Shown: one piece after another, positions 6,401-54,641 of the stretch
Position numbering within the stretch: position 1 is the first letter of the stretch
Layout of the letters: every line of letters begins with the position of its first letter
NCBI RefSeq assembly: GCF_029873635.1
Contig: NC_080427.1
Location: 74,741,348-74,805,347 of the forward strand
Source of the DNA: Malania oleifera
Lineage: Eukaryota; Streptophyta; Magnoliopsida; Santalales; Ximeniaceae
Reading direction: 5' to 3'
DNA: 64,000 bases
Program-made: the position numbers and the translations under genes
The notes under the pieces: generated by a model
What the model was told of the DNA's origin: nothing
What the model saw: the letters and a program-made list of their open reading frames with translations, nothing else
Database searches by the model: none

Positions 6401-9400
6401 TTCTGTTTAATTGTCTGCTGTCCAGCCATCCCTTCTTTCTTCTCTTCTGCTGTGTTCTTCATCTCCGCGTCTTCTTTATCTTATTCATTACTCTCTCATT
6501 TCTCTTTCTGATTTCTGAATCATGTTGCTTGTCCTACATCAAATTGGTACCAGAGGAAACCATGATCACCAATTCACCATGCAGCCACTGTCCATCAGCC
6601 TGCAACTTCTCCAGAAATTACAGCCATGCCCCCGAATTTCAATCACCAACATCCACGAAGACAAAACCCTTTGAAGCACCATGCACACTATTGAAGACAA
6701 AACCCTCTGAAACACCACCCCCTGAAGTTTCATTGCGATCCGACCAGCTGAGAGTCCCATACGCTAGCTGAAACTTTTCCAGCCGACCCCCTGTTAAATT
6801 CCTATGCTTCCTGCAGTTTTCTTGATAGACTGCCACCCTCAATGGAGTCGCCACCTCTTGATCTGGCACCATCTGTAGCACCATTGCCAGAACACCCTCG
6901 CCAGCAGCATATATGCCCCATGTGCTGGCAACCTGCAAGTGAAAAACTTTGAGTGTTCTCCTGCCTCCAGATTCTTGAGAAATTGCCTTCCAGCCTCAGT
7001 GAAATGTGTTTTTCCTTGTTATTTTAAAGCAGAATTGGGAGAAATTCATGTGTTACCTATGATAAGTGCTTTTTGAGGAAAATCTCATAGCCAACCTGGG
7101 GTTCAGTCCTATCTGTTGGTGTTTTAAGGCTGTTTCCTGGGGATTAGGAGAATCGGGAGTTGAGGAATTGCATGATTATGCTGATAATTTGATACTCAAT
7201 GCAATTAGTGTTCAAAATCTTTGGTGACATAACCAAGTTCTCACATTTCTCTTGATTAATGTTTGCAAGATTAGGGAAATTAGTGATTTGCATAATTCCA
7301 AGTTTCTTGTTACCATTTTAAAAAAAAGAAAACTCTTCCCTTTTTTCTTGTAAATTCCTCTTGTTCATTCATTGCTTCAATCCTTGTTCATACCTATACC
7401 TCCTTGTTGTCACATTATGTAGGGCCATGTCAATTCATATGCCTTATGTTCAATAGCTTCATGCATGTGCATTGTAGCAAGTTTAACGTTCATGCCACTT
7501 GTAGTCAAGTTTAGTCTCATTGTAACGTATTGCATTACCCATCGCTAAGAAAAATATTGAGACCATCCCATTGAACTTGCACCCGTTAATGATCAATCAT
7601 TGTCTATCCAATTAGACACTCTTTAGGGGTCAGCGGACCAAAAATTTGAGCGCATCACAGGATAATTTACCCAAGTCATGAAGTTTTTAGGTAAATTCCC
7701 TATTGTAGATGATATAGGAAAATTAGTGAGGTACTCTAATGAGTCCCCATATTTAGTTGGGTCAGCCCAGGGTATCCTTCCTACTCCAGGAATTCCTATT
7801 GCACCAAACAAGATGACTCAAACTCCAAAACAAACTAGTAGACCATTTCAACCCCTTCAACCTCAAGCCAATCTAGAGTCTAGATTTGAGGAAGATAACT
7901 TTGAGGAGTTGGCCGATAAGGTACCAAAATAACCCTATACTTGCTCCACATTCCCCTTGGCATGATTGGAAGGACTATGGATATGCTTCAAAAAGGGTCA
8001 ATGTAGATGTGTGTGCTTCGGCCCGGATGTAGAGTCTAGAGAGGGGGGGGGGGGTGAATGGACTCTTTCGCGTATTTTTGACTTTCTCTACAAAATCAAA
8101 TCTTGCCAAGATTGCAAGCAATTATATCACAATATATAAAATGCAAATCATACACAAGACACAAATTAAAGAGTATAGGGAGAGAAAACTTAACACCAGT
8201 ATTTTAATGTGGTTCGGCACCAAGCCTACGTCCACGCTTTGAGACCAACTCAAGGATTCCACAATCCACTAAAATACTCCTTCACCAGCGGAGAAGCCTT
8301 ATAGCAAGAAAACCAATCCCTCAACGCTCACCAAGAGCCGCAAGGTTCACCAAGAAGCCTTGCAAGTTGGTTCACCAAGAACCTTCACTAATTGGTTCAC
8401 AAAGAACCTTTACAATTTGGTTCACAAAGAACCCTTTGCTACAAGAAGATGATTACAATAAAATGCTTCTTGTTGAGCTAATATCAAATACAAATCAAAC
8501 CTCACACTATTCTCTCAAGTAATGAATCAAACAAGATTGGAGAGCAAGATAGAATTTGAGCACTTGTAATGAAGAACTAAAATGCAAAGGTTTTGTATTC
8601 AAAGATATTTTTCACTAAGAACTTGTAAAATCACCAAAACCCATCCTAAACAAGTCTATGGACTTGTTTTTATAGCCAAAACCACGAGCTAGCCATTATA
8701 TGACCATTGGGAGTGAATCCCAAATGATTTGCTCGAGAACCAGCCATTGGTGTTCAGGTCCCGATGTTAATTGTTGACGAATTGCACCCAATTGTCAATG
8801 AGTGACCTTCAGTCGTTGACGAATCTACCCTTTTCGTTGACGAGCCACCTAGGCTGAAAAACATGTTTTGCTACTAGAAAAATTTGTCGACGAGTCAAAC
8901 TCATTCGTCGACGAGTCTCTGCAATTCATCGACAATTCAATGCCATTCATCGACGATTGCCCTATTTATCATACTAATAAGCCTTTTAATGACTTAGCCC
9001 ATTCTTGGACAAAATATATGAAAGGTACTAAGTCTAATGAAGATTAATATTTGTCTACATGAATTTCCCTTTGAATATAAGATATCTTGTTTATGAAAAC
9101 ACATTTGAAAGCTCATTTTGATATCTTATATGCTAGTATTTCCTTTATAGAAAATTATACTCGACTTCTTTGAACCTTTTAGGACATGAACTTGTTTTGT
9201 CAAAACCTGGACTAAGTATGTAAAAGTTTATAACACAAATACCACTTAACACTTGTCCCATTTGAAAACATATTTGAGTATAGGATTCTTTTGTCAAACT
9301 CTTTGATTTAACTATGAAAACTATGAATGTTGAGTTTGTGACTTAGTGAAATCCTATATACTCTTGTGACCTAGTAAGCATGTGTATTTTGCTCAACTCT

Positions 9401-12400
9401 TGCTGTGAAATCATGCATGAAACAAAACCGCAAGAGTTACAAAATATAATACCTCAAACACTCCCCTCTACATATAATTCTACATTAAGCGTCCTTGGAT
9501 GTGCTTGAGTTCTTTCGAGTGAGTGTCCTTTTGATCTTTCCTACTTGACGTCTACTCAGTCCGATCTTTGGCTCTGATCTGGTACTTCATGTACTTGTCA
9601 TTTGTACCTGTACTTATCAAGATCTGCAAAGATGGGAATACACTAGGAACAACAAATAGGTTAATATCGTCAAAACATATTAGACATGATTATGTAGCCA
9701 CCAAGGCTAACAATCTCCCCATTTTTTATGATGTCTAACCTATTAAGAATTTACTTAATTTTTGCATTTGTGTTTGTACTTACCATAGCTTAATATGCAA
9801 AGATTAGTTCACCTAGAACCGCTAATGGATTGTTATCATCAAAACATGACAATTAAGCTCATGTAGCCACCAAGGCTAACAATCTCCCCCTTTTTGATGA
9901 TGGCAGACCATTGGTGTTCTCTATAGGGTATAATTTCAAAGCTGCCCCTCAATTTATGCATATTATTAAATGGGACTAAAATATGCTCCTCCTTACTATA
10001 TGCATATGTAAAATTGGCTCCCCCTTACTTTATGCATATAAGTCATAATAAAGATATTTATATCTATTGGAGCTTTAACATGTAATTAATAAAGTAGAAA
10101 GTTCATTTAAGATGAAACAATAAGCAAATTGAACTTTCATATTACCACATGCATTCTATCCCACATATATAACACCAAATATCTTCTCCCCCTTTGATCA
10201 TCATCAAAAAGAGAGGTGCTATCCTTTTATTTTGAAGTTGCTCTAAAAAGCCTACTAAGACTAATTTCCATGTTGGTGAGGTGAGTATGTGCTAAGTTCA
10301 TATACCTATTGTCGGTGCTATATCATAACATCTGAAAAACCTAGAGTGGCTTCCATCTTTATTCATGAATGATGATCTTAAAGTTTATTAGAATGATACT
10401 ACTTCTTGTTGGATCAATCATTCAAATATGGACATTTTCCATGAAGAATTCATGCTAGGTATTCTTCTAAACAAAGCATATGCTCTCAATGATATTACAA
10501 ATAGATGCTTCATTTGAATACCACTTGTTGTTATGATAAGCTCTACTAAAACTCAACTTCATGAATGCTATGTTTTAGATATTCTAACTATGTATCCAAA
10601 CAAGCATATATCATCAAAACAAATTTTATTACCAAGGAATATATCTTTTGTCTAAAAGGGATGGACTAACCTATCATAGCATGCTTTTGAACCTTTATTC
10701 ATACAAGGTTTTTCAATTTACTACTCATAAATTTTATTCCTAAAGAATAAGCCTTGAGCACATGCTATTTCATCTCATAAACAATAGCCAATACTTTTAA
10801 AAGAGATAAACCAATTACCAATATATAAAAAACAAATCAAATTGGTTTCATAATTTGAACTCATCAATATTGGCATGAATCTCTAAAAGGTTCCCAACAA
10901 AGAAATCAAATCATTTAAAATGCATATTTTGGGATTTTAAACTTTGAGCACATCATATTCATCATATTCTTTTTAACTATGTAAAGTAAAGTCTACCTAA
11001 ATCCTATTTCGTAATCCTAGGTTCTAAGGAAGCAATAATTCACAAATCATGTGTTTCCTTTTGGTACCCATTCTTCCTTGGGTGCCAATGTGTTGGTTTT
11101 ATTTACTACCCGTTCAAGCCTCCTTTCTTTGCTTCTAGCTCCTCTAACCCTTTCTTTCACAATATAAACAATTTTTGTTTGTGTGAGAGGGTTTTGATTT
11201 ATTTGCACTATCTTTGCTTGATGAGGCATAACCATGTGATTTACAAGAGGATTTTAAATTCTTTTTGGAAAGATTATTTCTTTTAACTCCCAACAATTTA
11301 TTGGAGTTTTCTTTTCCTCTTATGGTTTTACCATGATTTTCAATTTTGTTTTTCAAGAGAGCATTTTCTTTCAAAACATTTCCAATTTGATTTTTCAATT
11401 TTCCTACCTCTACTTGAAAAGATTCATGGTCTTTTTGAGCTTTTTCAATAAACTCCTCAATTTCCTTTTTAAGGGAAGCATTTTCATCTTTTAAGGTGGA
11501 ACAAAGACAAGGTTCTTTTTCTTTGCATTTTAACAATTTATCTTCTAAATTTTCTACTTTTACTTTTAAGGCTTCATGCTTTTTTTCAATATTTTTGTTC
11601 CTTTTTTACTAAAACTAATTCATTAAACAACTTAGCACAATTTTCCACTGCTTCATCATAAGAGTGTTCATAATTATCCTCATTTGAACTTACTTCCTCT
11701 TGTTTGTTAGCCATGAAGCACAAGTGTGCTTCTTCCTCCACTTCATCATTGGTTAAGGTTCATCAATTTCATTGTAAATAGTAGTATTCATAACATTATA
11801 ATCTTATTTTTGAAATTTCCCTTTGTGTTTGATTAAGGGACAATTTGTTATGAAATGACCAACCTTTTTGCAATTGTAGCACTTAATGCTATCATTTTTG
11901 CTTGTTTCCTCTTTTCTAGCTTGCTTACTAAACTTTGGTCCTTTTACTAAGAATTTTCTAAATTTTCTTGTGAGTGATTCTATATCATCCTCACTGTCCT
12001 CATCATCATCCTCTAGCATTTCTTTGTATTTTGGACTAGATGATTTTAAAGCAATACCTTTATCCTTCCTTGGCTTCTTAGAATTTTTTCTTAATTTCAT
12101 AGGTCATAAGTGACCCAATTAGCTCATCAAGTGTGACTTTGGTTAGATCCTTTTCTTCCTCAATAGCGGTTGATTTAGCATGCCACGACTCAGGTAAAGA
12201 TCAAAGAACTTTTTGAACATTATCCTCTATAGAATAAGTTCTACTGAGTGCTTTTAAACCATTTGTGATGTGTGTGAACCAAGTGGACAGGGATCTGATT
12301 GATTCTCCCTCATCCATTTTAAACATTTCACACTCATTAACTAGCTTGTATATTTTGGACTTCTTAACTTGGGATGTACCTTCATGTGTGACGTCAAGCT

Positions 12401-15400
12401 TATCCCATATTTCTTTACCGGTTTCACATCCACAAATAAAATTGTATTCATTGTCACTTATAGCACAATAAAGAAAATTCTTGGTTTTAAAATTAAGTTC
12501 TACTAACCTTATTTCGGTGTCCGACATCTCCCCAAGTTGTTTTGGTTCACCTTTGTCATTTTTGAACTCATAATCTCCCTTTGTGATGACCCCCCACATT
12601 TTAAGATTGTGTGCTTGTTAGAAGATGGTCATTTGAGTTTTCCAATCCGGGTAGTTGGAACCGTTGAACATTGGTGGTCTGGTCACAAATTGTCCTTGGG
12701 AAGAGGTATCCATCAAATATGTCATTTGATCTTTACGCTCTGGATTTTACTCCAAAAAATGCAAGCGCCTTGCTCTAATACCACCTGTCGGCCCGAGTGT
12801 AGAGTCTAGAGGGGGGGGTGAATGGATTCTTTCGTGTATTTTCGACTTTCTCTACAAAATCAAATTCTTGGCAAGATTGCAAGCAATTATATCACAATAT
12901 ATAAAATATAAATTATGCACAAGACACAAATTAATGAGTATAGGGAGAGAAAACTTAAACCCGGTATTTTAACGTGGTTCGGCACCAAGCCTAAGTCCAC
13001 GCCTTGAGACCAACTCAAGGATTCCACAATCCACTAAAATACTCCTTCACTGGTGGAGAAGCTTTACAACGAGAGAACCAATCCCTCAACACTCACCAAG
13101 AGCCGCAAGGTTCACCAAGAAGCCTTGTAAGTCGGTTTACCAAGAACCTTCACCAATTGATTCACAAAGAACCTTTACAATTTGGTTCACAAAGAACCCT
13201 TTGCAACAAGAAGATGATTACAATAAAATGCTCCTTATTGAGCTGATATCAAATACAAATCAAACCTCACACTATTCTCTCAAGTAATGAATCAAACAAG
13301 ATTGGAGAGTAAGAGAGAATTTGAGCACTTGTGATGAAGAACTAAAATGTAAAGTCCCTAGGTTTTGTATTCAAAGATATTTTTCACTAAGAACTTGTAA
13401 AATCACCAAAACCCATCCTAAACAAGTCTATGGACTTGTATTTATAGTCAAAACTATGAGCTAGTCGTTATGAGACCATTGGGAGTGAATCCCAAATGAT
13501 TTGCTCAAGAACTAGCCTTTTTCTAGCCATTGGTGTTCAGGTCCCGATGTTAATTGTCGACGAATTGCATCCAATCGTCGATGAGTGACCTTTAGTCATC
13601 GACGAGTCTGCTCTTTTTGTCGATGAGTCACCTAGGCTGAAAAACACGTTTTGCTACTGAAAAAATTCGTCAATGAGTCCCTACAATTCATCGATGATTG
13701 CCCTATTTATCATACTATTAAGCCTTTTAATGACTTAGCCCATTCTTGGACAAAATATATGAAAGATACTAAGTCTAATGAAGATTAATATTTGTCCACA
13801 TGAATTTCCCTTTGAATATAAGATATCTTGTTTATGAAAACACATTTGAAATCTCATTTTGATATCTTATATGCTAGTATGTCCTTTATAGAAAATTATA
13901 CTTGACTTCTATGAACCTTTTAGGACATGAACTTGTTTTGTCAAAACCGGGACCAAGTATGTAAAAGTTTGTAACACAAATACCACTTAACACTTGTCCC
14001 ATTTGTAAACATATTTGAGTATAGGATTCTTTTGTCAAACTCTTTGATTTAACTTTGAAAACTATGAATGTTGAGTTTGTGACTTAGTGAAATCCTATAT
14101 ACTCTTGTGACCTAGTAAGCATGTGTATTTTGCTCAACTCTTGCTCAGAAATCATACATGAAACAAAACCGCAAGAGTTACAAAATATACTACCTCAAAC
14201 ACTCCTCATTACATATAATTCTACATTAAGCTTCCTTGGATGTGTTTGAGAGTGAGTGTCCTTTTGATCTTTCCTACTTGACATCTACTCAGTCCGATCT
14301 TTGCCTATGACTTGTTACTACATGTATTTGTCACTTGTACCTATACTTATCATGATCTGCAAAGATAGGAATACACTAGGAACAACAAATAGGTTAATAT
14401 CATCAAAACATATTAAACATGATTATGTAGCCACCAAGGCTAACAGTTCCTATAAATGGAAATTGGACCCAAGCTCCTTTTTAGATTGGGTAAAGGAGAT
14501 GGAAGGTATCTTTTATTCGAACTATATATGTGGTGAGGACATAGTTAGGTTTGTTGTGATGAAACTTGTAGGACCAAAAAAAAAAAAAGAAGAAGAACTG
14601 AACCAACAAATCTTGGAGCAGTTAGGTGAACCTCTTATTACCATGTGGGAAGCAATGAGACAAAAATTGGAAGAGAAGTACCTCCTTCCTTCCTATAAGT
14701 GCTTTTTGTTCGATGACCTCCTAAACCATCAACAAACCACCACTATAAAAAGCTATATTAAGTGGTTCAGGGAGCTAGTGCTTGGGGAGTGGTATTGTTA
14801 AGGTCAGGCATCACACTGCAACTGGGTTCGTGAATGGTCTTGAGGAATATGTTAGGAGGGAGGTTGAATTGCTTTCATTTGTGTTTACAGGTAGTGTATC
14901 AGAAAGATCTTGCCATAAAGTACCACAAGATCTATTATAGATCTTCATCTCGGGTGAGTGAGTCTCATCATTCCAAATCCTTTCCTTAGTCTAGGTCTAT
15001 CATTCCTCACGCTACCCCCAGAGAAACTTCTCCAAAGCAAATAAAGTTCCACCATGTCATTCACTCTAGTGGATATTTTATTCCTCAGGCTAGTGGCTCA
15101 CATGTCTAGCGTCATCATTTGCACGCTAGAGATCACATTGTTGCTCATTGTCCCCAACGAGCCTTAGCTTTAGAGTGTGAAACTGATTACCTACCTAATC
15201 GTGAGGATTAGTTTGTAGATGCCTTTGAGTAGTTGGGTGATCAAGGTGAGCTTGATGATTTTTGGGAGGATAGCCACCATGTTAGGTGGGTAGGCATGTC
15301 TTCTGCACTATTATGGATAATGAGAAGGGGAAAAAAACCACTATTTTTCGCACTTCCATTCACTGTTGGGATAGGGCATGTAAGCTAGTTATTGATGGGG

Positions 15401-18400: not shown

Positions 18401-21400
18401 GCTGACTAAATTTGGTCCATCAGGGTTTGATACTATATATATATATATATATATACGTAACTGATATTTCTATATTGTTGTTTTTCCATGATTCTAATAT
18501 TACTAAAATAACTATAACATGAAATAACTTATCTAAATATGCTGTGTAATCTGAATACTAAATATCTTAATACTAAATATCTGAAGTGTTATGGTTCTGA
18601 AATATGAAAATCATGGTATACTGAAAATGCTGTATTATTTATTTTATTGAATATATTCCATAAAATATGATTCTGCAAAATCTGAGAATATCTATCTATC
18701 TGTAGATATTTTTATGTGCATATATATACCGTACATCATGATATTCTCAAATTCGTGTAAATTCTATATAATAATATTTTCTGACAATATACTATAAATC
18801 ATGATATCTAAAAGCTATATAAAAATACTATATTGTGTTGATACTAACTCATGCCACACAACTAAATAAAATGCCTCTGTACTGAAATCTATACTTTCCC
18901 GAAAACACATGAAACTACAGATAATATTACTAATTTAACTGGCATAGCATATTTCCCTTACCTGACTATCTGAGCACTAAATTCTATTTACAATCTCACG
19001 CATGCGGCATTCATAATTTCAACATCCTGAGATAACACGCGTATAATTTCTCAATCAAACAACTAAATTGACCTAGATAATTATCACATACATATTCTCC
19101 CCAAATCCACATATGCACAATTTCTAAACTATAAATCATTTATCATTTTACCGGGGTTCCTGAAACATCACTCATTGGGGTCCTCAACCCATGCCTGCAA
19201 GTTCTCAAAACACCCTATTCCTGAAAATATAATACCCTAATTTTACTTCACAAAACTCTAGTATATTCTTATATAATATAAAATCTAGGCTCAAACAACT
19301 TGGTAATACTAACAATACCCAAATAATCTACTTACCCTGATTTTGGGATGGTTTTCAAGTTGGCCTAACCAACAAATTACTCCAGCAGATTTGTAGATAA
19401 TTCTCCCAGGAGTAACGTGACAGCTTTGGATCGTCGAATCGGTGAAGAATGGGTTCAGAATCATAGAGAGAAGGTAGAGGAACCGAGCTAAAGAGAAAGT
19501 GAGAGAAAATCTAATTTTTCCTTGCAAAGAATGGGTTTTCGGCCTTTTATAATGTGCTTGTCCACGTGGCCTTGTTGATGAGCCACGATACCTCGTCGAC
19601 GAGTCCATGAAGGAGATTCGTCGACGAGCACTTAATCCTTGTCAACGAGTTTCAGGCTCTGGAAATAGGTCTCTCGGTAAGTTCTCATCAACAAGTCACG
19701 CGTCCCCATTGACAATCCCAAGCTCATCGACGAGCACTTCTACACTCGTTGATGAGACCCTACTAAACCTTTTTTTTAAAATTCATTTTCTCTCTTTTCT
19801 TTCATTATTTAATTACTGTAATTCTTCGGGTCTCTACGTCCATTGTGTCTGATAGGGATGTCAAGTTTCAAATTACTTTGGGATGACACTTTGGAAAATG
19901 TATGGGACTCACTTTAATGGTCAGGCTAAGGTCGTGAATCGTAGTCTTGGTGACCTACTTAGGTGTGTTGTGGGAGAAAAACATAGGAATTGGGACTTAA
20001 TTTATGTTTTCTTTTGCTTGCCACCCCTAAATTGAAGGCCAAATTGAGATTGTGAATCATAGTTTTGGTGACCTACTAGGTGTGTGATGGGAGAAAATAG
20101 GTCAATTGGAACTTAGTGCTACTTACTTTTGAGTTTGTGAATAGGTCATTGATGTTGTTCAATTGCCTCCAAATGCCTGATATTAGAGCTTGCTGAGTCT
20201 TTTATTCATCAGACTCTTGATTTGTATGCTGAGGTTAGGCAAAAACATGCTATGAGTAACACGGACTACAAACTTGCTGCAGATGCACACCATAGAGCTA
20301 GAGACTTTAATATAGTGTCATGGTTCAAATTAGACCAAAACACTACCCTAGATATTCATTTAAAAAGCTCCATGCTTGTGCCTTTGTCCCTTTCACCCCA
20401 TTGAGAAACTTGGACCTGATGCATATTTCCTTGATTTTCCTACTCATATGACCATTAATCTAGTGTTTAATGTTCAGGATTTGACACCTTACTAAGGCAC
20501 CTTTAAGCCTCTTGCTTTTCCATCTAGTGCTGATGTAAGGTCAGTAGCTCCTCAGCCTCCATATATTTCTCAGCCACAGGAGACATTGGAGTCTATTTTG
20601 GATGATGGGTTTGTGACATTCCCTCAGGGTAGTTTTCTTTGATACTTGGTATGGTGAAGAGGTTGTCCCTAGTCAGCTGCTATATGTCTATCTGAGGATA
20701 ATGTCTATGTTCATGAGAACACACTTGAGTTGCTAGAGTCATATTTACAGTGCCACTCTTTCAAGCTGAGTTCCTTTGAGGACGAGGATTATGACAGATG
20801 ATCATCTACGTCCTTTAGGGCCACCCATTCAACACACCTCTTTTAGGCATAGATTTAGGAAATTGTGCTCGTATTAGGTTTTCCTTTGTTTTGTTTGATG
20901 ACTTTCCATGGTATTGTGTAATTTCATGTTTCATTGGGGTTTGTATGGCATATTTGCAGTCCCACTTTTTGGGGCTGAGTTCCTTTCAGGCCAAGGAATA
21001 TGACAGAGGACCGTTTACGTCCTTTAGGCCGCCCATTTGGCACACCTATTTTAGGCATAGATTTAGGAAATTGTGCTTGTATTAGGATTTACTTTGTATT
21101 GTTTAGTGACTTTCCCTGGTATTGTGTAGTTTCATGTTTCGTTGGGGTTCTTATGTAAATATGTATTAGTAGTAGTATCTTGAATCCGAAGATCATTTGA
21201 ATCAGAATTGCAAGTACACTTTCCCCCTCTCCCCTTCTTGCAGGTTCTTCATCTTCTGTCTAAATCTCTGTTCTGTTCTCTCTTTTTGTTCTCTCCCTTT
21301 TCTGTCTAATTCTCTGCTGTCCTGCAGCCCCTTCTGTCTTCTCTTCTCTTCTCTTCTTCTTATTCTCTCCCCATTATTCTCTCATTCTCTCTGATTTCTG

Positions 21401-35729: not shown

Positions 35730-35789
<60 letters not shown>

Positions 35790-37547: not shown

Positions 37548-37550
37548 ATT

Positions 37551-37562: not shown

Positions 37563-37870
37563 CTAGGTTACTAGGTTCTGCATACTCTAGAGTGCAACGA
37601 GAAACAATAACAGAATTCATGAAAATAGATTTGAGGTTTTGTTCTGTAATTTGGATACAGGATTTTCGTGGTGGTTTCTATGTTTTTCTTGGGGTGACGA
37701 TTTCAGGAAAGTCATAGTAAACTATCGACGAGTCGTGTGTTTGGGTTGCAGGATTGGATTTTGGGGCTAGGATCAGGGGAATGGTTAATAGAGGATCTAA
37801 AGTTCTAGTTAAATAAGTTAGGTATATATGGGGTATAGGATTTTGAAACGGTGTTCCATATATTTGTAGG

Positions 37871-38815
37871 ATGGACCCAGGAGGCAGTAGCGCTCACGCT
37901 AGTGGTGATGATGGAGCGGGTCCTTTTGGCTTAGGGGGTGAAGATTCAGATGTTGTGCTACATAGTGTGACTCAGCAAGTTATGGCTGAGATAGCACAGA
38001 GTTCTAGAGAGCAGGGAGGTCCATCTCCAATTCAAGGATGTACCATAGAGAAATTTATGAAGATGAACTCGCCAGCGTTCTCTGGAGCAACTTGCTCTGC
38101 AGTTACAAAGAATTGGTTATAGAAAATGGAGAAGATTCTGTTAGTACTTCACTGCACCGGCAAGCAGAGAGTCTTATATGCCATGTATAGGCTGGCGAGG
38201 GAGGCCGAGAGATGGTGGTCAGCCACCAAACTGTTGGAGGAGCAGAGGGCAATTCTAGTACTGATGACCTAGGCACGATTCCGGGACGTGTTCTTCGATA
38301 GATATTATCTTGCTTCGGTTAGAGAGGCTCAAGTACAAGAGTTTTTGAGTCTGTCCCAGGGGTCGATGACTGTCCAACAGTATGCTTCGAGATTTATCAA
38401 GCTTCGTTTCTGCCCATATATTATCCTTGATGAAGTGAATAAGGCAAGAAAGTTTTAGAGGAACCTAAGGCGAGATATTTACAGAAAGGTGGCAACACTG
38501 AGGATCCAGGATTTCTTAGAGTTGGTTGTCAGAAGTATTATAGCAGAGGAAAGTTTGCTGAGGGAGACTAAGATGCAGAGTCAGAAGAAGAGGACTGCAC
38601 CCTCGAGTTTTCAGGCAGGTCCCAGTCGAGGCCCTTGGAGAGGAGGTAGATTTGGCGGAAGTCAGAGACAGATGGTAGAGCAGGGTGGATTTCAAGGTGG
38701 TCAGCCTCCCACCATTTGTACCAAATGTGGACGGAGACACCCGGGTGAATGTTTGTTGGGGGAGAATGTTTGCTTTCACTGCGGGAGGCCTAGCCATATG
38801 GCTCGATCATGTTAG
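37871..38815 (+). pseudogene. Tekay gag, disrupted
   Basis: It starts MDPGGSSAHASGDDGAG. The retrotransposon gag core follows ([15 protein letters not shown], then FRDVFFDRYYLASVREAQVQ, then LSQGSMTVQQYASRFIKL). The C-terminal nucleocapsid has two cysteine motifs, CTKCGRRHPGEC and CFHCGRPSHMARSC, the second a CCHC knuckle. Stops at 38120, near 38270 and at 38458 break it. Gag would form the cytoplasmic particle that packages the element RNA. Confidence 0.88.
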
Positions 38816-38914
38816 ATGTCATAGAATTACGCATTGGCTCCTAAGCCGTCTTGAGGTGGTTATCAAGCGCCCCGCGGAGGCCAGCAGAGGAATACTGGGC
38901 CGGCGAGGGTCTAC

Positions 38915-39400
38915 GTGTTGACGCCAGGTGATGCTAAGATGGTTGGAGACGTGGTCACAGGTACCATTATTACTTTCCCATATAAAATTGTTATTTTTTT
39001 TTATACAGATGCCACCCACTCTTTTATATCGGTGAGGTATGTCAGAATAATTGGGGTAGAGACACAGCTATTAGAGGTAGAGTTATCTGTGGGTACGCCG
39101 ATGGGATCTGTGGTAAAATGTAGGAAAGTGCTTCGAAATTTTTCAGTAAGTATTCAGGAGAGAGTGTTGTTAGCCGATCTTATGGTCCTAGATATGTAGA
39201 GGTTTGATGTGATACTGGGCATGGACTGGCTAGCTACTCATTATGCTAGCATAGATTGCCACCAGAAAGAAGTGATTTTTAAACTCTCGAATGAGCAAAA
39301 ATACAAATTCATGGGTTCACGTGTACGTGCCTCACCACAGCTGGTGTTGGCTATTCAGGTAAGGAGATTACTACAGGGTGGTTGTTAGGGGTATGTTGCA
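38915..39400 (+). pseudogene. Tekay aspartic protease region, disrupted
   Basis: The read-through FFYTDATHSFISVRYV aligns with the LxDxGATHSFIS protease motif of Tekay-type elements, and FDVILGMDWLATHYASIDCH follows after a stop at 39199. The catalytic Asp is present, but the following Gly/Ser is altered (YTDATH), so activity is unlikely. Confidence 0.8.
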
Positions 39401-39559
39401 TACATAAAAGAATTGCCAAAAGAAGAATTAAGATAAGTTGATATACTAGTAGTGAGGGAATTCCCAGATGTCTTTCTAGAAGAATTGTCTGGTTTGCTGC
39501 TTGACCATGAAATTGAGTTTACTATAGATCTGTTGTCGGGATCTGCACCAGTATCTAAG

Positions 39560-40690
39560 GCACCGTAATGTATAGCTCCAGTGGAGTTGAAAGAATTGAA
39601 AGATCAGTTACAGGAATTGCTGGACAAATGGTTTATCAGGTCCAGTGTATCGCCTTGAGGAGCAGCGCCAATTTTGTTCGTGAAAAAGAAATATGGAACC
39701 ATGAGATTGTGCATCAATTATAAGGAGATAAACAAACTGACAATCAAGAATAAATATGCTTTCCCTAGGATCGATGATTTATTTGATCAGCTTCAGGGGA
39801 CCCAGGTTTACTCTAAAATTGACTTGCGGTCGGGTTACCATCAGGTGAAAATAAGAGCAAAGGACATTTCGAATACCGCATTTCAAACCAGATATGGGCA
39901 TTAAGAATTCTTAGTGATGCCATTTGGGTTGACTAATGCACCAGCAGTATTTATGGATTTAATGAATCGGGTGTTTCATCAATATTTGGACCAATTTGTG
40001 GTTGTCTTCATTGATGATATACTGGTCTACTCGAGGAGTTTTAAGGAGCATGAATATCATTTAAGACTGGTGTTGCAGATATTGAGAGAAACGAAATTGT
40101 ATGCAAAATTCAAGAAATATGAGTTCTGGCTAAGGCAAGTTACCTTTCTCAGCCGTATGATCTCTAAAGCAGGTGTATCAGTTGATCCGAGTAAAATAGA
40201 GGTGGTAATAAGTTGGGAAAGGCCAGGTAGCATTCAAGAGGTCAAGAGTTTTCTAGGATTAGCAGGCTATTACCGGCACTTCATAGATGGCTTCTCTAGA
40301 CTATCAAGTCCATTAACACCGCTTACGAGGAAAAATGTGAAGTTTAATTGGACCGACGACTGTGAACAAAGTTTTCAGGAGTTAAAGCGGCGGTTAGTTT
40401 CAGCTCCGATATTAGTTATTCCATCAGGGGAGGACAGGTTTGTAACAAAGTGATGCCTGTTTGAAGGGTCTTGGATGCGTGTTGATGCAGCACGACAAGG
40501 TTATTGCGTATGCGTCTAGACAGCTTAAAGAGTATGAGAGGAATTATCCTGTCCATGGTTTAGAGCTTGCTGCGGTAGTGTATGCTCTCAAGATCTGGAG
40601 GCATTACCTATATGGTGGAAAGTGCGAGATTTTTGTGGATCACAAGAGCTTGAAGTATTTGTTTACTCAGAAGGAACTAATATGAGACAA
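39560..40690 (+). pseudogene. Tekay reverse transcriptase and RNase H, disrupted
   Basis: RT motifs in order are [55 protein letters not shown] and the catalytic [12 protein letters not shown]. The connection reads [19 protein letters not shown]. RNase H resumes in another frame at 40461 ([20 protein letters not shown], then [20 protein letters not shown]). A stop at 39902 and a frameshift near 40450 disable it. The YxDD-type box (IDD) itself is intact. Confidence 0.9.
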
Positions 40691-42333
40691 AGAAGGTGGT
40701 TAGACCTTATTAAAGACTATGACTGCACCATTAGTTACCACCCAGGGAAAGTGAATATGGTAGCTGATGCTTCAAGTAGGAAATCAATTGGACCAGTACT
40801 AGCAGCCATGGAGATTCCACATTCAATTTTGATAAATTTGGAGAGACTCGACATAGAATTAATAGAGGAAAGTCCTCAGGCAGCCATTGCCACTCTAGTG
40901 GTTCAGCCCACACTATATGAGAGGATTAAAGTAGCCAAAAGTGATGATGCAGAGTTGGTAGAGGTAATGGCTAGGGTGTGAGATGGTCTGGGTGAGGAAT
41001 TTAGCATATCAGATGACGGAACTTCACAGTTCCGTACTAGGCTCTGTGTTCCCGCAGATACTGAGATTAAGAGAACTGTATTGGAGGAGGCTCACAGATC
41101 CCTATACACCGTACATCAAGGTAGCACTAAAATGTATCAGGATCTGCAGGAGTGCTTTTGGTGGAGTGCAATGAAGAGAGAGATAGCCGAATTTGTACAG
41201 CAGTGCTTGACATGCCAGCAGGTTAAAGCTGAGCACTAGAGACTAGCAGGGCAGTTGCAGTCATTATTTATTCCAAAATGGAAATAGGATCACGTTTCTA
41301 TGGATTTTGTTACGGGATTACCATTAGTGCGTCAAGGGTTGAATGCAATTTGGGTGGTTGTGGATTGTTTGGCGAAGACCGCTCATTTTATCCCTATTAA
41401 AATTGGCTATTCCATGGACAGACTGGCAGAGATATATGTTCATGAGATAGTTCGTGTTCATGGAGTACCAGTATCCATAGTCTCGGACTGAGATCCTCGG
41501 TTTACTTCACGATTCTGGTAAAGTTTTTAGGAGACTATGGGTTCACAGTTAGCATTTATCACTACTTTCCATCCCCAGACAAATGGACAAACTGAGAGGA
41601 CGATCCAGACATTAGAAGATATGCTTCGTGCGTGCATGCTGAATTTCGGGGGTAGCTGGACTCAGTTTCTACCACTAGTTGAATTTGCTTATAATAACAA
41701 CTACTAAGATAGTATCGGCATGGCTCCATACGAGGCATTGTATGGTAGGAGATGTCGTTCTTCTCTCTTATGGGACAAGGTAAGCGAAAGGCGAGTTTTG
41801 GGTCCAGAGATAGTACAACAGGCTTATGACAAGGTTCTACTAATTAAAGAAAGAATTAGTACCGAGCAAAGTCGACAGAAAAGCTACGCAGACACTCGCC
41901 ACCGAGACTAGAATTTGATATAGGAGATCGAGTATTTTTGAAGATAGCTCCTCTGAAAGGAGTAATGAGGTTTGGAAAAAAGGGCAAGTTGAGCTAGGTA
42001 TATTGGCCCTTTTAAGATACTAGAGAGAATAGGGTCAGATGCCTATAGGCTAGCTTTGCCGCCAGCTTTGGTTAGAATTCATGACGTGTTTCATGTTGTT
42101 ATATTAAGGAAATACGTCCCAGACCCGTCCCACATAATCAGCTATGCAGATATAGAACTCAAGGATTCACTAGCTTATGAAGACACACCGGTACATATTT
42201 TAGACAAAAAAACACAAGAACTGCATACTAATGAAATTCAGCTAGTGAAGATTTTGTGGAGGAACCATGCTATGGAAGAAGCCTCATGGGAACTTGAGGA
42301 TGAAATTAAAAAGAAATACCCACATTTGTTCTA
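40690..42333 (+). pseudogene. Tekay integrase and chromodomain, disrupted
   Basis: The HHCC zinc region lies near 41090-41220 (LYTVHQGSTKMYQDLQ, then CLTCQQVKAEH). The catalytic core is at 41300-41700 with D (SMDFVTGLP), D (SIVSD*DPRFTSRFW, with a stop inside) and E of FHPQTNGQTERTIQTLE. The C-terminal GPY-like part reads [20 protein letters not shown]. The tail [20 protein letters not shown] is a chromodomain of the type carried by Tekay/Del chromoviruses, which targets integration to heterochromatin. It ends at TAA 42332-42334. Confidence 0.9.
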
Positions 42334-42573
42334 AGAGTAATCAGGTAATGTAAATAGTTAGATAGTGTTTCTTTCGCAGGTACATGTATTATTTAGTTAG
42401 TAAGTAGTTTTTAATTTTATATGTGTAATCTCCTAGAACATAGAATGTAACTACGGTATTCCTCCGCCATAAGTGAGGGTAAGTAATAAAATAAGTAGAC
42501 CCTTTACCTTTATGAGATGGTAGAGTGTATAATGGTGTTCAATCCATATAGTAAATTTGGAGGACAAAATTTT

Positions 42574-42588
42574 ATAAGGAGGGGAGAA
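42574..42588 (+). promoter_or_regulatory. Polypurine tract of Tekay element
   Basis: The purine run aaggaggggagaa lies immediately before the 3' LTR start at 42589 and primes plus-strand DNA synthesis in this family. The same tract precedes the LTR at 50406. Confidence 0.85.
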
Positions 42589-42619
42589 TGTAATAACCCA
42601 AGGAATTTTTCAGAATCTT

Positions 42620-42805
42620 GTCGACGAACACAGGGAATTTGTCGATGAGGATATAAGAGAAGCTCATTGACGAGGACAGGTTTCATCGACAAGAAAATAC
42701 CGAGAGAGATTTTGGGGCAGTCTAAAATTCATCGACGAAGGAGGAAGTTTGTCGATGAAATTCCTTAAAGACTTGTCAATGAGATGACGTGTCTTGTCGA
42801 CAAAT
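42620..42805 (+). promoter_or_regulatory. Palindrome array, eight sites, 3' LTR
   Basis: Cores at 42620, 42641, 42666, 42685, 42731, 42751, 42775 and 42796, spacing 21-25-19-46-20-24-21. TATA (actataaatag) starts about 15 bp after the last core. Confidence 0.88.
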
Positions 42806-44499
42806 ATGAGACTATAAATAGTGAAAACTCGGATTTTTCAGCAGAAAAATGGCACAAACTTTATCTCTCTCTCTCTCTCTCTCTAAAATGCACCCCTCCC
42901 CTTCTCTCTTCGATCTTGGCTCCGTTTCTCGTCAGATTGAAGATCTGAGGGCACCACGATGCTCCTGACGAAGTTCTCTACAAGTCTTCCGGAGCTAATT
43001 ATGGGAGAAATTGGTTTGAAATTCATCTCAAATTCAGGGTAAGGTGTTTTATTCAGAATCTGCTTTTCCTATGGTTATAGGAAATATTGTTTGTAGGAAA
43101 ATACTGACGTTTTGTTCTAGGGGATGTCGTTTTCAGGGTGTTGATTGGAGAACCCTACGGGTGTAGGGCTAGAGTTCAGTAAAGGCTTTTCGGAAACTAG
43201 GTAAAGGAAATATGCTATGCTAGACAATTCTAGTAAATTTTTAACATGAATTATATGTTTTTACTAGATTATTATTTTTTAACATGAATTTTTAACATGT
43301 ATACCAGTTATTATATAGAATATGAGTTTTAAAGTATGTGTGACCTGAGTAGATATTATCTGATATGGAGTTTTTATATAGTTTTTCAGTATATCAAGTT
43401 ATGCAGATATAGTTAGATATTTACAGATTTTATACAGACATAATACGTATACATAGACAGTTTTATTCAAGTGATTACACAGACAGATATATATATATAT
43501 ATATATATGTATAGCAGTATACATATGTTTATTTAGATCAGTATATACAGAGTATATAGAAAGTTATGTTTTCCTAATTGTCATAACAGTCAGAGTATAC
43601 TAATAGATTATACAGATAGAAAATATAGACAGATTTTACAATTATAGCATCAAGATGCTACAGATATTACAGTATTTACTGTAAAGAATTATAGTGTTAT
43701 GGTTATTTTGGAAACATGATGAAAACAATAAAAGAGTATATATGTAAATATATAGTATCAGATCCCTGTGAAAAGATTATAGACAGATACAGATATAGAA
43801 TATAGAGCACGGTACCGTTGCTAATATAGATAGAGTGTCACGCCCGAACCTGCAGATGGGTCCCAAGTGTGAATTTAGTAACCTAACCTGTCTCTGTATC
43901 AATTTAAAACATATGTGATACCATACAAAAGAGGGTCCGACCCCGTGGGATGAATGGATGCTTCCATACATACACACAATCATCCATACTCATCCAATAT
44001 ACGTAGCGGAATATAGTCTTTTATACATAACCAGGATCATACCAGAGTCTATACAACTAGGATATACATTCCCATAATTACAACACATGCCCCAAGTGTC
44101 CACAAAACTATCCCAACAACCTGGATACCAAAACTCGTACCTAGTAGGTAATAGCAGTAGCTACGACACCCTTGCTTCCAAATGCTAGGATGCTACTTAC
44201 GGCTACTTGAGAGACCTGAAAAAAAACATTGTACGTACATTCGGGGTGAGACACCTCTCGGTAAGGAAGAAAGTAGGTTATATCAGTGTGTGACATACTA
44301 GTGTTATTTTACACACTTCATAACACTGTAAAATAAGATACAATTCAAAACATTTACCTATAGTTTCATATATATACATACAATTCCATACAGTTCCAGT
44401 ATTTTCCCAAAAACCATTCTAGTACATACGATACCTAAAACATACGGTCAGTGTCATCACACTAGTTCGCAACTACATAAGAGCACCTCATCTCACAGC

Positions 44500-44988
44500 G
44501 ATTACATTGCTACACACGCAACTACGCTGCGATGACTGAGGCCCACAGTGATTACATTGCTCCATACGCAACTACACAAGGTCACCTAGTCTCACATCGA
44601 TTACATTGCTACATACGCAACTACAATGCGATGACTCAGACCCACAGTGATTACATTGCCACATACGCAACTACACAAGGTCACCCAATCTCACAGCGAT
44701 TACATTGCTATACACACAACTACGAAGCGACGACTCAAGCCCACAATGATTACATTGCCACATACGCAACTACATAAGGTCACCCAGTCTCACCACGATT
44801 ACATTGCCACATGCACAACTACGCTGCAACGACCACAATGATTACATTGCCACATACGCAACTACATAAGGTCACCTAGTCTCACCACGATTACATTGCC
44901 ACATGCACAACTACGCTGCAACGACCTCGGCCCATAGTGATTACATTGCTATATACGGTGTAGAACACACCCTTCGGTGACCAGCCGT
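44500..44988. repeat. Minisatellite, ~49.5 bp monomer in ~99 bp dimers
   Basis: The word gattacattgc begins at 44500, 44550, 44599, 44649, 44698, 44748, 44797, 44840, 44889 and 44939. Monomers alternate between a type with 'gcaactacacaaggtcac' and a type with 'caactacgctgcgatgac', so the true unit is a 99 bp dimer. One monomer (44797-44839) lost about 7 bp. Confidence 0.93.
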
Positions 44989-45874
44989 CACATACTGGTG
45001 ATATTTCACAACCCGGATATAGAGCTGGCCACTCTCGCCCATGGTAGCTAACCAATACATGGTTGTTTTTACAAATCCTTGAAATTATTTTGGAACTCAC
45101 ATTCCTATACGTTTCAGCATGGTAATTAGCCGCCGCATAGCTGTTTTACAAATATCTAGAACAATTACATACAACCATGCATACCACACTTATTTGGTTT
45201 ACGGAAAATCATATCGTTTACAATTTCAAGTACACAGTTTATACAAATATGGATTACGGTCACCTCAATAATACAATTTTAACATAACAAACAGTTTTCC
45301 AAACCAAGTAGAGATGGTACCCGAAATCCCCAATATTCCCGAAAACTATAACCCAAAAATCCTACATTTTTACCTTATAGATTTCCTTAAATAAGTAGCC
45401 AAAACATACATACGATCATAGCATACAAGCTTACCAATCCCGATTTCGAAAATGAACTGATATAAATAGAATCCCCTTACCTTAACCCGAATTCCAACTA
45501 CGAACTCTACGGTCCTCAAAACTATGAACCGAGACTCCAAAACCTACAAACAGTAATACAATACTTACTTACAATCCGTACTACTACACATATACTGAAT
45601 CAGAAATGAAAACCGAGCCTTACCTCCATTTTAGCTCGAAACCCGAAATCCTCTGAAATGAGATTTCGATCCGCTAAAAACGTAGAGAATCCTTCACTGA
45701 TCCTCGCAGTAACTTCAGATTTGCGATTCAAGCGACAAACGGGGCGAAGCAATAAAGGAGAGAGAGAGAGAGCTTCAAATCCTAGAGAGAGAGAGAGAGA
45801 GAGAGGAAAACCATAACTTAGCCAAGAAGAAAACTACAAATTTCCTTATAAAGACCTTTGACTCGAGGGATTTC

Positions 45875-46063
45875 GTCGACAAAATGGTGTTCTCATCGAT
45901 GAATCTTTCACAGACTTTGTCGACGAATAGGTGGCCTCGTTGACGAATTTGAGATTGCCGGTCTTTCCGAGACTCCTTGGCTTCTCCTCTTTGACGAATC
46001 TCTGAATTTCGTTGACGAGAAGAACAATGACTTCGTCGACGAATTTTGGCTTCGTCGACGAAA
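45875..46063 (-). promoter_or_regulatory. Palindrome array, eight sites, in nested solo LTR
   Basis: Cores at 45875, 45895, 45919, 45939, 45990, 46011, 46035 and 46054, spacing 20-24-20-51-21-24-19. Confidence 0.87.
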
Positions 46064-46925
46064 TCCGCTCTTTTACCAAATGTCCCTCTCTTTTACATAA
46101 TAAATCCACATATCACGATTTGGGTTCTTAGATAGAGTGCAACAACATATCTCAGATAGTGTGTGGGTAACGTCAACTGTGTTCTGCAAGTATGCAGCTC
46201 CCTAGTTCACTAGGATGAGAGGGCCAGTTTGACGAGGTAGCAGCCAGTCCCATGCCTAGGAGAGTATGCAGTTTGGCCGGGTTAAGGTAGTGTAAAGTAT
46301 AGTGACTTTCCTTGAGGGCCGACCAGGTTAAGTCCCGCCTACGGGCCGCACAACCCTGTTATGAGGGGTCAAATCATGACGTACAAAGTTCCAGGGATAA
46401 AGCACAGTTATGTATATATATACAATTTTACAGTATTTGATAAATATAGTATGATACTAGCAGTATGAAAAGTAGAAAAATTCAGATGATATAGTTATGT
46501 TTTAAACTGCGAAAAATGTAAGATATGCTTTACAGACTTATCATTTTATTACAGCTCAGATATTATTTGAAGTATTTATGTAACTTAGTTGCCACACACT
46601 AGTAATAGCATATTTCCACTTACTGAGTGTCGTCTCACCTCATTACTTTACCACTTTTTAGGTAAGCCAGCTAGGCGAGCAAATTAGGCTCGCGGATAGA
46701 GAGTTGACCTGGTTACCCTAGTTGTAGGGTAAGTTTGTGATAGGGTTTTTGTATTTTTTTTGGGTAGATGATACTAGAGGGAGTTATTGTATATGGCTAT
46801 GGTCTGAATGTACTGAATTATGATATTGTATAGTATATGTGATTGTATTGTATGACTTATGTTTCTACTACATAGGTATGATTATATATATAGATAAAAA
46901 ATGATATAATTTTGAGGTCGTTACA

Positions 46926-47098: not shown

Positions 47099-47636
47099 GC
47101 TACCCTAATTTTGGAGTGGTGCCCAAGTACTCCAAATTGAAAATCTGCTCTGCCTATGGTGCAGGGAATCTTCCTAGGAACCTTGTGGTAGTTTCTGATT
47201 GTCGAATCGAGCTAAATTCGGGCCGGATTCGAAGCAAATAGATAGGAAAATTGAAACCCAAAGAGAGAAAATGAGAGAGGAGAGAGAAATTCGCGGAAAA
47301 GAGGATTCAAAGCCTATTTATAACCAGGCCTTCGTTGACGCGACACGTGAGTTCGTCGACGAAGCCAAGAAGAACATTTGTTGACGAGGTCAAAATATTT
47401 GTCGACGAAACATTTAAAAACCTAATTTTTCCTGCTCTTGGTAATTCCTCGTCGATGAAACACGTGCACTCGTAGACAAAACCTAGAAGGATGTTCATCG
47501 ACGAGGAGAAAAAAATCATCGACAAGTCCCTACTTGATACCCTTTTAAACTTATTTTCCCCTTTCTTTTATTTTCCCCCATTTACCTTTTATTTATTTTC
47601 TTTTATTTTTATGAGTTTGGGTTATTACACAGAGGC
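47099..47636 (-). repeat. Tekay-like LTR fragment, 5' portion (reverse)
   Basis: It runs from 'cctaattttggagtggtgcc' (compare 19332 and 53940) to 'gggttattaca'. It includes a reverse TATA (tttataacc, about 47317) and a clear palindrome array at 47334-47527. Confidence 0.78.
47334..47527 (-). promoter_or_regulatory. Palindrome array, eight sites, symmetric spacing
   Basis: Cores at 47334, 47355, 47380, 47401, 47451, 47472, 47497 and 47518, spacing exactly 21-25-21-50-21-25-21. Confidence 0.9.
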
Positions 47637-50405: not shown

Positions 50406-51095
50406 TGTAATGACCCAGAGAAATTATAATATTATAATAATAAAATAAGGGGGAAAGGGAAAAGGAAAACAGGGTCTCGTCGATGAATTCTGGGGGTTCG
50501 TCGACGAGAGAGCATAGAGGGCTTGTCAACGAGGGAGTGTTTCGTCGACAAGAAAGTACCGAGAGGATGTTTTGGGCATTTCTAAATTTCATTGATGAGG
50601 GAAAAGTTCGTCGACGAGTTGTCTTCTTGACCTCGTCAACAAGGTGATGTGGCTCATCGACGAAGGCCAGCATATAAATAGGCCTAAACCTCATTTTTTT
50701 CTGAAATTTCACGCACTACTTCTCTCTCTCTCTCTCTCTCTCTCCCCTCCTTTTTGGTTTCCACACCTTCTCTCTAGTTTTCTGGGTCCGTTCTTCACTG
50801 GATCGACGATCCGAAGCCACCACAACACTCCTAGAGAAGTTCTCTACATATCTGTTGGAGTGGATCATCAGTTGAGCGAGCTTGAAATTCACCCCAAATT
50901 CAAGGTAAGGGTTTTACTCAAAATTTGGCTTTATTGTAGTTGTGGGAAATGTTATATCTGAAGAAATACTGAAGTTTAGTTCTGGGAGATGTTATTTCCA
51001 GGGTGTTGAACGGGGAACCCAACGAGTGTTAGACTGATATACTTGAGGGGCTTTTTTAGGGATCAAGTAAAGGGACAAACTAAGCTGGTCATTTT

Positions 51096-52382: not shown

Positions 52383-54445
52383 ATACCAGTGTCAGTATTA
52401 TCTGAGAAAATATACCATTCCACATTTACTATCATATAGATATACAAAAGAAGCTTTCAAAAGCTTTTACTTTCATTACCAAAATCATTCAATACAACTC
52501 AAATTTACCCGCGAAGTTCTTAAGAATAGGGACTCGCCCATACAAGTAGCTTCCCTCTGCCTTGATATCTCTGCAGCATAGCTCGATTTACCTGAGGTTA
52601 GCGATAATTGATACTTATCAGAGCACTCACCTTACTCAGTAAGCCCTCAGGCGTTGAGTTTACTTCACTTTAATTATTTATTAACTCATGCTATTCATTT
52701 CCCATTTCATTCCTATTCCTATTCCCTTTTCATGTTCATTTCCATTTCTAGCACATGAGTATTCTCGGTAATCCACACTGCTGTGTCTGTAACTTATAGC
52801 TACCCTGAGGATTTTTCTCCACGCCATGCTTCCCCTCATGGACAGGGTTGTGCGGCCCAAAAGTTGGACCTAACCTTAGTTGGCCGACCTAGTTTAGTTA
52901 AATTTCATCACATATCTCATGTCTGCAGTACGAATGGCCCACCAAAACCCTGATCCGGACTCAGGGGGCACAACAAATCTATTATATGGCTCAACCTACT
53001 GCCACATCACACGCTCCACGAGCCTGTATGGTTGCACTGCTCCACTAGTAACGGTACCGTGCTCTCAATATCATACCCCATCATTAGGGTTTCCATATCC
53101 ATCCATCAAGGTTTCACTGCCACATACCAACAATCATTATGTGGTATTGGCATTTCATCCATTTCATGTATGTATTTCCAGTGCAAAATTCCACATTTCA
53201 TCTCTCACAATTTAGAATACATATTGCAGAATCAACATGCAATATTCACATTTCCCATTTCCTTATTTCTTATCATTATGTTTCACATATTCACATTCCT
53301 TATATTCATATTGCAGAATTTTACATTGCAATATACACATTTCAAAACTAATATTCTCAACACATTTATCATTTCAATAATACTTTCTTAGTTCATGATT
53401 CATTTCACCACATTTATTATATAATCATCTCTTTTCACAAATATTTAGTGTTTTCTCAAACACATTCACATATTTCACATTTTCTCATTTTCTCAGAAAA
53501 TACTTTTCTTGCATATTTCACTTTCATCATTTTTCCACAATTCAATTCTCATATTATAACACATTTCAATATCACATATTCTACAGGATAATTCATTTAT
53601 CCTAGTTTAAACATTTTCCAATATAATTCATATGCTACACAAATTTCATTTGATATTTATATTATAAATAAATTTTAGGTAAACTATCATATACCATTTT
53701 CACACAATGTTTAACCCATAATTTCCTTAAAAATACTGTTATAATTTATTCCCTTTATCTAGCTTACTGAGATGCTCACAACAACACCCAATTTGACTCT
53801 CCTCAACATTCCGAACTCAAAAGCCTAAAAATCATACTTTAACCAAATTTATCACCTCATTTCCCACAACAATTTTAGTAAAGTACTACCTACATTTCAA
53901 ATACTCCAAACAACCATAATACCCTTAAATCCCTTACTTACCCTGATTTTGGGATGGTACCCAAGTTGGCCTAACCAACGAACTACTCTAGCAGACTTGA
54001 AGAGAATCTTCCCAAGAGTAGCGTGGTATCTTCTGATCGTCGATCCGGGCTTTAACGAAGCCGGAATTCTAGAGAGAGGGAGAGGAGAGGGACAAGTTTA
54101 GAGAGAGAAAGAAATGAGCTGCATGAAATTTTCTTGCTAATCCCGAGCACAACTTATTTATAAGACTCAGATTTGTCGATGAGACACGTCACCTCGTCGA
54201 CGAGTCCATGAAGGGAGTTCATCGATGAACTCGTAACTCTCGTCGACGAACTTCAGGCTCTACTGAACCCCTCTCAATAAATTCTTGTTGATGAGACACG
54301 AGTCCCCGTCAACGAGCCCAAGAAGGCTTCTCATCAACGAGCGCTTTGTGTTCGTCAACGAAATCCTGCTAGGTCCCTTATGAAAAAATCATTTTCTCTC
54401 ATTTTCCTTTATTATTTATTTGATATAATTATTCGGGTCTTTACA
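52383..54445 (-). repeat. Tekay-like LTR (reverse), left end missing
   Basis: The right end is CGGGTCTTTACA (minus start TGTAAAGACCCG). It shares 'cttaccctgattttgggatg' (53938) and 'gacagggttgtgcggccc' (52841) with the solo LTR at 17487. A palindrome array lies at 54175-54363. The left end is abruptly joined to the + LTR ending at 52382. Confidence 0.8.
54175..54363 (-). promoter_or_regulatory. Palindrome array, eight sites, symmetric spacing
   Basis: Cores at 54175, 54196, 54221, 54242, 54287, 54308, 54333 and 54354, spacing exactly 21-25-21-45-21-25-21. A reverse TATA-like 'tttataag' lies at about 54158. Confidence 0.9.
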
Positions 54446-54641
54446 CTTCGTCGATGAACCCTAAACCTGATATTTTCAGTTGTTCTGTATCTCTTCATCG
54501 ACAATGCTCTGAATTTCGGCGACAGACCTCAGAAGGGCCTTTGTCGACGAGAATTGAGACTTCGTTGACGAAGCCTGCTGTTCCTCTTTAAAATTTTCCT
54601 TTCCTTTTTTCTTATTAAATTTCTGGGTTCGGGTCTCTACA
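54446..54641 (-). repeat. Tekay-like LTR 5' end (reverse), with partial palindrome array
   Basis: It ends GGGTCTCTACA at 54641 inside copia gag. Five palindrome cores lie at 54450, 54497, 54518, 54543 and 54564, spacing 47-21-25-21. The other half of the array is absent where the LTR at 52383-54445 abuts. Confidence 0.75.

Follow-up and report, generated by a model that had tools for sequence, protein, structure and literature searches.

Here, we describe a ten-letter palindrome, TCGTCGACGA, which recurs in regularly spaced arrays in the long terminal repeats (LTRs) of both copia and gypsy retrotransposons of Malania oleifera (garlic-fruit tree, Santalales). The arrays were noticed in a 64,000-nucleotide stretch of contig NC_080427.1 (positions 74,741,348 to 74,805,347, forward strand; hereafter the window). 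In both superfamilies they lie upstream of the TATA box, in agreement with the U3 position proposed in a sequence-only reading of this stretch. This arrangement suggests that both element types respond to one kind of host regulator, and from the design and position of the arrays we consider it fairly probable that they act as a proximal U3 enhancer for a dimeric host DNA-binding protein, which would drive or gate both element types.

If up to two mismatches are allowed, TCGTCGACGA is matched 75 times in the window, whereas 5.4 matches are expected, and none of 100 shuffles reached this number, so that the array predicted from the letters is indeed present above shuffled controls. The coordinates used in the sequence-only reading refer to the GTCGAC core, which starts 2 bp inside the 10-mer counted here. 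Only three matches (34762, 50375 and 62944) fall outside the arrays that it named, and the LTRs at 931, 3135, 6080, 21001 and 57880, which had been described as free of the array, have no match at the same threshold.

The first array-bearing element was correctly assigned to copia, as a copia gag domain is located between two minus-strand LTRs. Its parts are:

8015-9712, minus strand: 3' LTR, with an approximate lower boundary, 89.6% identical to 12788-14445, with a polypurine tract-AT-TG junction at 9712
8771-8956, minus strand: copia array C1, eight sites, spacing 21-21-21-50-21-21-21 (matches and spacing)
9715-10193, minus strand: six copies of the Sirevirus polypurine tract AGGGGGAG within ~480 bp, three of them exact, the other three with a single mismatch
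12201-12614, minus strand: copia gag fragment (Retrotran_gag_2, Pfam PF14223, E = 4.2e-14)
12786-14445, minus strand: 5' LTR, then GG and the primer-binding site TGGTATTAGAGCA (LTR alignment)
13554-13697, minus strand: copia array C2, six sites recognised (matches and alignment)

A hallmark of Sireviruses, the presence of several AGGGGGAG polypurine tracts ahead of the 3' LTR, is found in this element; the terminal copy has one mismatch and starts 10 bp before the LTR. At the junction, TTAGACAT precedes the LTR and ATGTCTAA lies inside it, which might be an inverted repeat as judged by eye. The best four of ten proteins close to the gag fragment come from Malania oleifera and are 60-66% identical to it, and no reverse transcriptase was found among the translated frames scanned for this element. 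Gag and the polypurine tracts, as partial evidence for the clade name, point to a Sirevirus-like copia. The spacing claimed for copia is met with exactly in array C1, which is followed by a TATA box 96 bp beyond it on the minus strand (70 bp with a looser TATA pattern), and an alignment gap in array C2 suggests a deletion within one tetrad.

The second element, at 35481-46925, is bounded by identical CTTGG pentamers and was likewise rightly called gypsy, since RVP_2, RVT_1 and SH3_Tf2-1 domains lie between plus-strand LTRs starting at 35481 and 42589. The palindrome is thus common to the two superfamilies, with LTRs carrying the array on both sides of gag in one case and of pol domains in the other. 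The gypsy element consists of:

35481-37547, plus strand: 5' LTR, preceded by CTTGG (LTR alignment)
35510-35674, plus strand: array G35 within the 5' LTR, seven sites, TATA at +9
38855-42331, plus strand: gypsy pol pieces RVP_2, RVT_1 and SH3_Tf2-1 (clear) and a weak Chromo match (Pfam; 21.4 bits, below the gathering score of 25.1)
42589-43837, plus strand: first part of the 3' LTR (LTR alignment)
42618-42803, plus strand: array G42 in the 3' LTR, 21-25-19-46-20-24-21, TATA at +9
43838-46128, minus strand: solo LTR of ~2.3 kb inserted into the 3' LTR (LTR alignment)
45873-46061, minus strand: array G45 in the solo LTR
46129-46925, plus strand: remainder of the 3' LTR, then CTTGG (LTR alignment)

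The edges of the solo LTR and its target duplication are uncertain because its flanks have GATAGAGTG in common. Between 44468 and 44957, this LTR contains about five tandem 99-bp units, or about nine units of 49 bp. In three gypsy LTRs, (TC)n runs follow the TATA box at a distance of ~50 bp (35733-35789, 42864-42884 and 50721-50744).

Further arrays in the window are of the gypsy type, except for the weak array X32:

19572-19755, minus strand: array G19, eight sites, spacing irregular near 19706-19746
32126-32275, plus strand: array X32, a weak array of AAAYCGTCGACGRTTT-type palindromes within a third LTR, which is copia-like (relaxed matches)
35051-35124, plus strand: array G34, one tetrad, TATA at +21
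47332-47525, minus strand: array G47, 21-25-21-50-21-25-21, TATA at +9
50477-50663, plus strand: array G50, 21-25-19-47-19-25-21, TATA at +9
54173-54361, minus strand: array G54a, 21-25-21-45-21-25-21, TATA at +10
54448-54571, minus strand: array G54b, broken, with the G54a LTR edge adjoining its fifth site, by spacing

Tetrads of about 21-25-21 separated by a gap of 45-51 bp had been described for gypsy and are seen as such in G47 and G54a; other gypsy-type arrays in the window are small variants with intervals of 19-20 and 24 bp. The list of arrays in the sequence-only reading holds for the most part, but G34 is a single tetrad and G54b looks interrupted at its fifth site. At this place (54440-54460), insertion of the G54a element seems to have occurred next to a palindromic site, and plant LTR elements are reported to target palindromes (PMC6911290). 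The supposed third copia array at 32129 is at best a loose one, of a longer palindrome, with six relaxed matches compared with 26 elsewhere in the window, and the gag match downstream of it (E = 0.003) is below the cut-off. As the gypsy-type LTRs start alike (TGTAATAACCC, TGTAAGAACCC and similar) and nine of their U3 regions are pairwise 43-85% identical, we take them as related families, with pol domains examined for the element at 35481-46925. Del and Tekay are names for the same clade, and we take the form of the LTRs as a pointer to it. The Del/Tekay-like label rests on this form, on the sequence-only reading and on a paper on clade abundance in Malania discussed below.

Neither the motif nor its spacing is peculiar to the window. 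The whole genome contains 132,361 exact copies of TCGTCGACGA, compared with 1,383 of the reversed word and 433 of TCGACGTCGA, a palindrome of the same letters with three CpGs. Exact copies are paired 6179 times at 21 bp, 2498 times at 25 bp and 105 times at 23 bp, whereas the reversed-word control gave 0 pairs. We sampled contigs C1-C10 at their 10-Mb and 40-Mb positions (20 stretches of 10 kb) and found 60 CpG-degenerate sites versus 2.3 expected, and TCGTCGACGA itself occurred 20 times versus 0.01 expected under a first-order model, the top excess among the 10-letter palindromes seen at least three times in this sample. Nine of these stretches had at least two sites, two had one and nine had none. 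Within ten clusters of at least three sites, 35 of the 49 adjacent distances were 19-21 or 24-25 bp, while random placement gave 6.1 (standard deviation (SD) 2.3). The genome-wide spread of the arrays excludes a recombination limited to this locus. Among gypsy-type arrays with a 23-bp interval, those at L085:1436 and L086:1475 have a 13-bp spacer, ATTCTCATTAATT, in common, which recurs exactly at eight of the listed 23-bp-pair places, with near variants at more.

A genome search with the copia U3 of the window gave 43 matches on contigs C1-C13 (531 candidates, 40 scored), of which 20, from C1-C12, were fetched. As the query held the array, copia copies without an array would be missed; a copia LTR with the array was also met in L028, a stretch not picked for arrays. 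Eight recognised sites are present in 18 of the 20 copies, while L053 and L059 show seven, and with copies on 12 contigs the array is not a local event. The spacing is 21-21-21, a gap of 48-51 bp and again 21-21-21 in 17 of the 18 eight-site copies, with deviations of at most 1 bp inside the tetrads; the gap in L050 is 41 bp. In 18 of the 20 copies, the last site is followed by a TATA box at a distance of 86-121 bp; none was found in the other two. In 21 copia rows (C2 and CL28 were left out of the column statistics owing to length changes), the pooled non-CpG columns of the sites are nearly invariant (T 165/167, T 167/167, A 167/167 and A 164/166), and the changes in the CpG columns are mainly C>T and G>A. 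In these rows, transversion diversity is 0.009 in the T/A columns and 0.037 in the CpG columns of the sites, as opposed to 0.137 in the spacers and 0.094 in the flanks.

In 20 gypsy-type eight-site arrays, the mean spacings are 20.5, 24.6, 20.4, 46.8, 20.4, 24.4 and 20.6 bp, with SDs of 0.5-0.9 bp inside the tetrads and 1.8 bp for the gap. The TATA box follows at 9-12 bp in 12 of them, at 20-22 bp in six and at 62 bp in one, and one has none nearby. Thirteen of these arrays (L025 and twelve of L067-L086) come from loci that were picked because they hold an exact pair at 21 or 23 bp, five from the window and two from unchosen stretches, and all were required to have recognisable sites at allowed spacings; X32 was left out of the gypsy counts, and G35 (seven sites), G34 (four) and G54b (four recognised) out of the eight-site counts. 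In six gypsy arrays of the window, whose sites were placed by match and spacing, 189 of 192 site T/A letters are kept; the CpG columns retain 220 of 288 letters, and the changes there are C>T or G>A in 66 cases and of another kind in two. The sites are constrained while the spacers drift.

We propose a dimeric binder because each site is a dyad, and because site and spacing are kept better than spacer sequence. A sequence-specific host protein of this kind would bind the array, usually as two four-site modules, adjoining the TATA box upstream in gypsy and ~100 bp upstream of it in copia, and would thereby drive the transcription of both; alternatively, transcription could be gated through CpG methylation. 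Selection would have kept the sites intact as long as the elements were active, and methylated CpGs would have decayed after insertion. As the decay consists mostly of CpG transitions, inserted copies were presumably methylated. The same decay would fit a role of the array as a host silencing target, a proposal made for the palindrome-rich Sirevirus LTRs of maize: U3 RNA would become double-stranded at its self-complementary sites and supply small RNAs. The arrays do fold more stably than dinucleotide shuffles (z -2.4 to -5.5, seven arrays), and maize LTR palindromes are described as hotspots of small-RNA mapping in passages of PMC5311732. However, when the sites of the seven arrays were kept and the spacers shuffled or permuted, no extra pairing was seen (z -1.2 to +1.5), and upkeep of intact sites at fixed spacing beside the TATA box would not be expected, so that we regard such a target as improbable. 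An RNA hairpin, hinted at by the mirror-like spacing 21-25-19-47-19-25-21, was rejected, as the spacers show no extra pairing and the asymmetry between mirror and direct arrangements is slight (1.05 vs 1.45). RNA structure contributes nothing beyond the sites themselves.

How did two superfamilies come to carry the same design? In 18 pairs, the spacer similarity of copia to gypsy arrays differs from that of shuffled spacers by -0.06 to +0.03, whereas two copia copies exceed the null by 0.36 and gypsy arrays among themselves by up to 0.24. The letters next to the core are also specific to the lineage: position -2 is A in 15 of 16 copia half-sites, position -1 is a pyrimidine in 133 of the 136 half-sites of nine gypsy arrays, and X32 has AA at -3/-2. 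A recent swap is therefore unlikely; capture between families, one of the two origins considered in the sequence-only reading, is not supported as a recent event. Each lineage has probably amplified its own units around one common core. With confidence somewhat short of even, we favour an independent evolution of the same eight-site enhancer (4+4 sites, ~113-bp module) in two leading retrotransposon clades of this genome, one gypsy and one copia, which would both have come under one host regulator, a common switch with more than 130,000 exact sites.

The main rival is a shared ancient source: the array or a few units would have passed from one superfamily to the other in the distant past, through template switching or recombination of LTRs, and the spacers would have diverged since. 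Core, 4+4 layout and module length (113 bp in copia, 109-117 bp in gypsy) are indeed alike, and some gypsy pairs are at the null level too, such as G45 and others without clear spacer similarity to it although the LTRs align, which leaves room for old common descent, as dissimilar spacers do not exclude it. We nevertheless see it as unlikely, if still to be taken seriously, given that none of the 18 copia-gypsy pairs has spacers much more alike than shuffled ones, that the internal spacing is 21 bp in one and 23-25 bp in the other lineage and that the flanking letters differ. Those letters could also mean that the lineages use related but distinct host proteins with a common core preference and are not co-regulated. 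We find this rather doubtful, since all ten core letters are identical in the two main lineages and the flank bias (A at -2, pyrimidine at -1 and, in the weak X32, AA) could be a founder effect. A functionless minisatellite that unequal exchange has spread within U3 is, in our opinion, very improbable. Some copies do have duplicated modules (an extra partial module in L028, 11 sites in L067), and the tetrads of G47 and L029 are similar as direct repeats (0.65 vs 0.43 and 0.41), but a minisatellite would share whole units, whereas here a 10-bp core is shared and spacers vary between families and between copia tetrads; it would also leave two superfamilies and the TATA distance unexplained.

Several points weigh against an enhancer read by one host protein. 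The choice of rows by exact-pair loci, recognisable sites and an array-holding copia query, together with the placing of sites by match and spacing, favours intact arrays, no known plant factor was matched, and the different flanks may mean different proteins. In addition, four of five gypsy spacing patterns are out of helical phase across the eight sites. The proposal that all sites face one side of the DNA thus holds within copia tetrads (coherence 1.00) but not for these gypsy patterns: over eight sites, coherence is 0.73 in copia, 0.06-0.33 in the four gypsy patterns and 0.77 in the fifth. Intervals of 25, 24 or 19 bp do not correspond to a whole number of helical turns. Inside gypsy pairs, coherence is 0.83-1.00, so that pairs of sites about two turns apart may be the binding unit.

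Among 20 frames of the window that were scanned, one at 5335-5706 contains a host-gene-like fragment of a MitMem_reg domain (E = 1.6e-6). A search of viral contigs by reverse transcriptase confirmed no relatives. The pattern was found in 22 viral contigs; 21 of these, with 58-72% G+C and pair spacings of 21 or 24 bp, were rejected as relatives, being read as probable chance matches in coding sequence. The other (L016:2029-2071, IMGVR_UViG_3300044612_001891, 40% G+C) has TTGTCGACAA and two exact TCGTCGACGA copies at a distance of 21 bp, all in a region where no frame of at least 100 amino acids is listed; this looks like a phage operator and a separate use of the same palindrome.

Since the Sirevirus-type core is found again on unrelated gypsy elements, where spacing and TATA distance are conserved, one factor would have to be sought only once and could be tested on two superfamilies. 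If our proposal is true, the success of large Malania retrotransposon clades is tied to one host regulator, and loss or methylation affecting this regulator would be a testable route to the silencing of both clades.

As in Malania, palindromes reportedly occur in the regulatory region of Sirevirus LTRs in a 2016 Genome Research study. Tnt1 differs in that its boxes are few, are stress boxes and belong to one element family. It resembles the Malania elements in the repeated activator boxes of its LTR, that is, in repeated U3 boxes read by host factors (Tnt1 is named in a passage of PMC2829016). The closest known system is described in the motif sections of the same paper (Bousios et al., 2010), according to which palindromic motifs occur repeatedly ahead of the TATA box in 13 Sireviruses, all but one (Tnd-1) with a CGG-CCG signature. 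The motif is termed Sirevirus-specific among the copia elements compared there, and no common binding factor could be named. In Malania, Sire (3.77%) and Tork (1.16%) are the two most abundant copia clades, and Del is the most prevalent gypsy clade (6.99% of the assembly), as given in the first genome paper (PMC6377399). The word palindrome is absent from the main text of that paper and from the second genome paper (PMC10199050), and the passages citing the 2016 maize study (PMC5311732) mention no gypsy sharing of Sirevirus palindromes. We found no report of a palindrome array common to copia and gypsy LTRs in a search that left most subscription papers outside. In accordance with the Sirevirus motifs described in those sections of PMC2829016, the Malania sites are palindromic, CpG-rich, present in at least eight copies per element and grouped within the LTR ahead of the TATA box, and the Vitis motif CGGTCGACCG has the core GTCGAC in common with TCGTCGACGA. 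In contrast to them, the Malania core lacks the CGG-CCG signature, and it also differs from the maize OPIE-2/PREM-2 motif CACCGGACTGTCCGGTG in the table of that paper. Palindromic repeats in Sirevirus LTRs were thus already known; what appears to be new is that in Malania the palindrome is not confined to Sireviruses, but is shared with gypsy LTRs.

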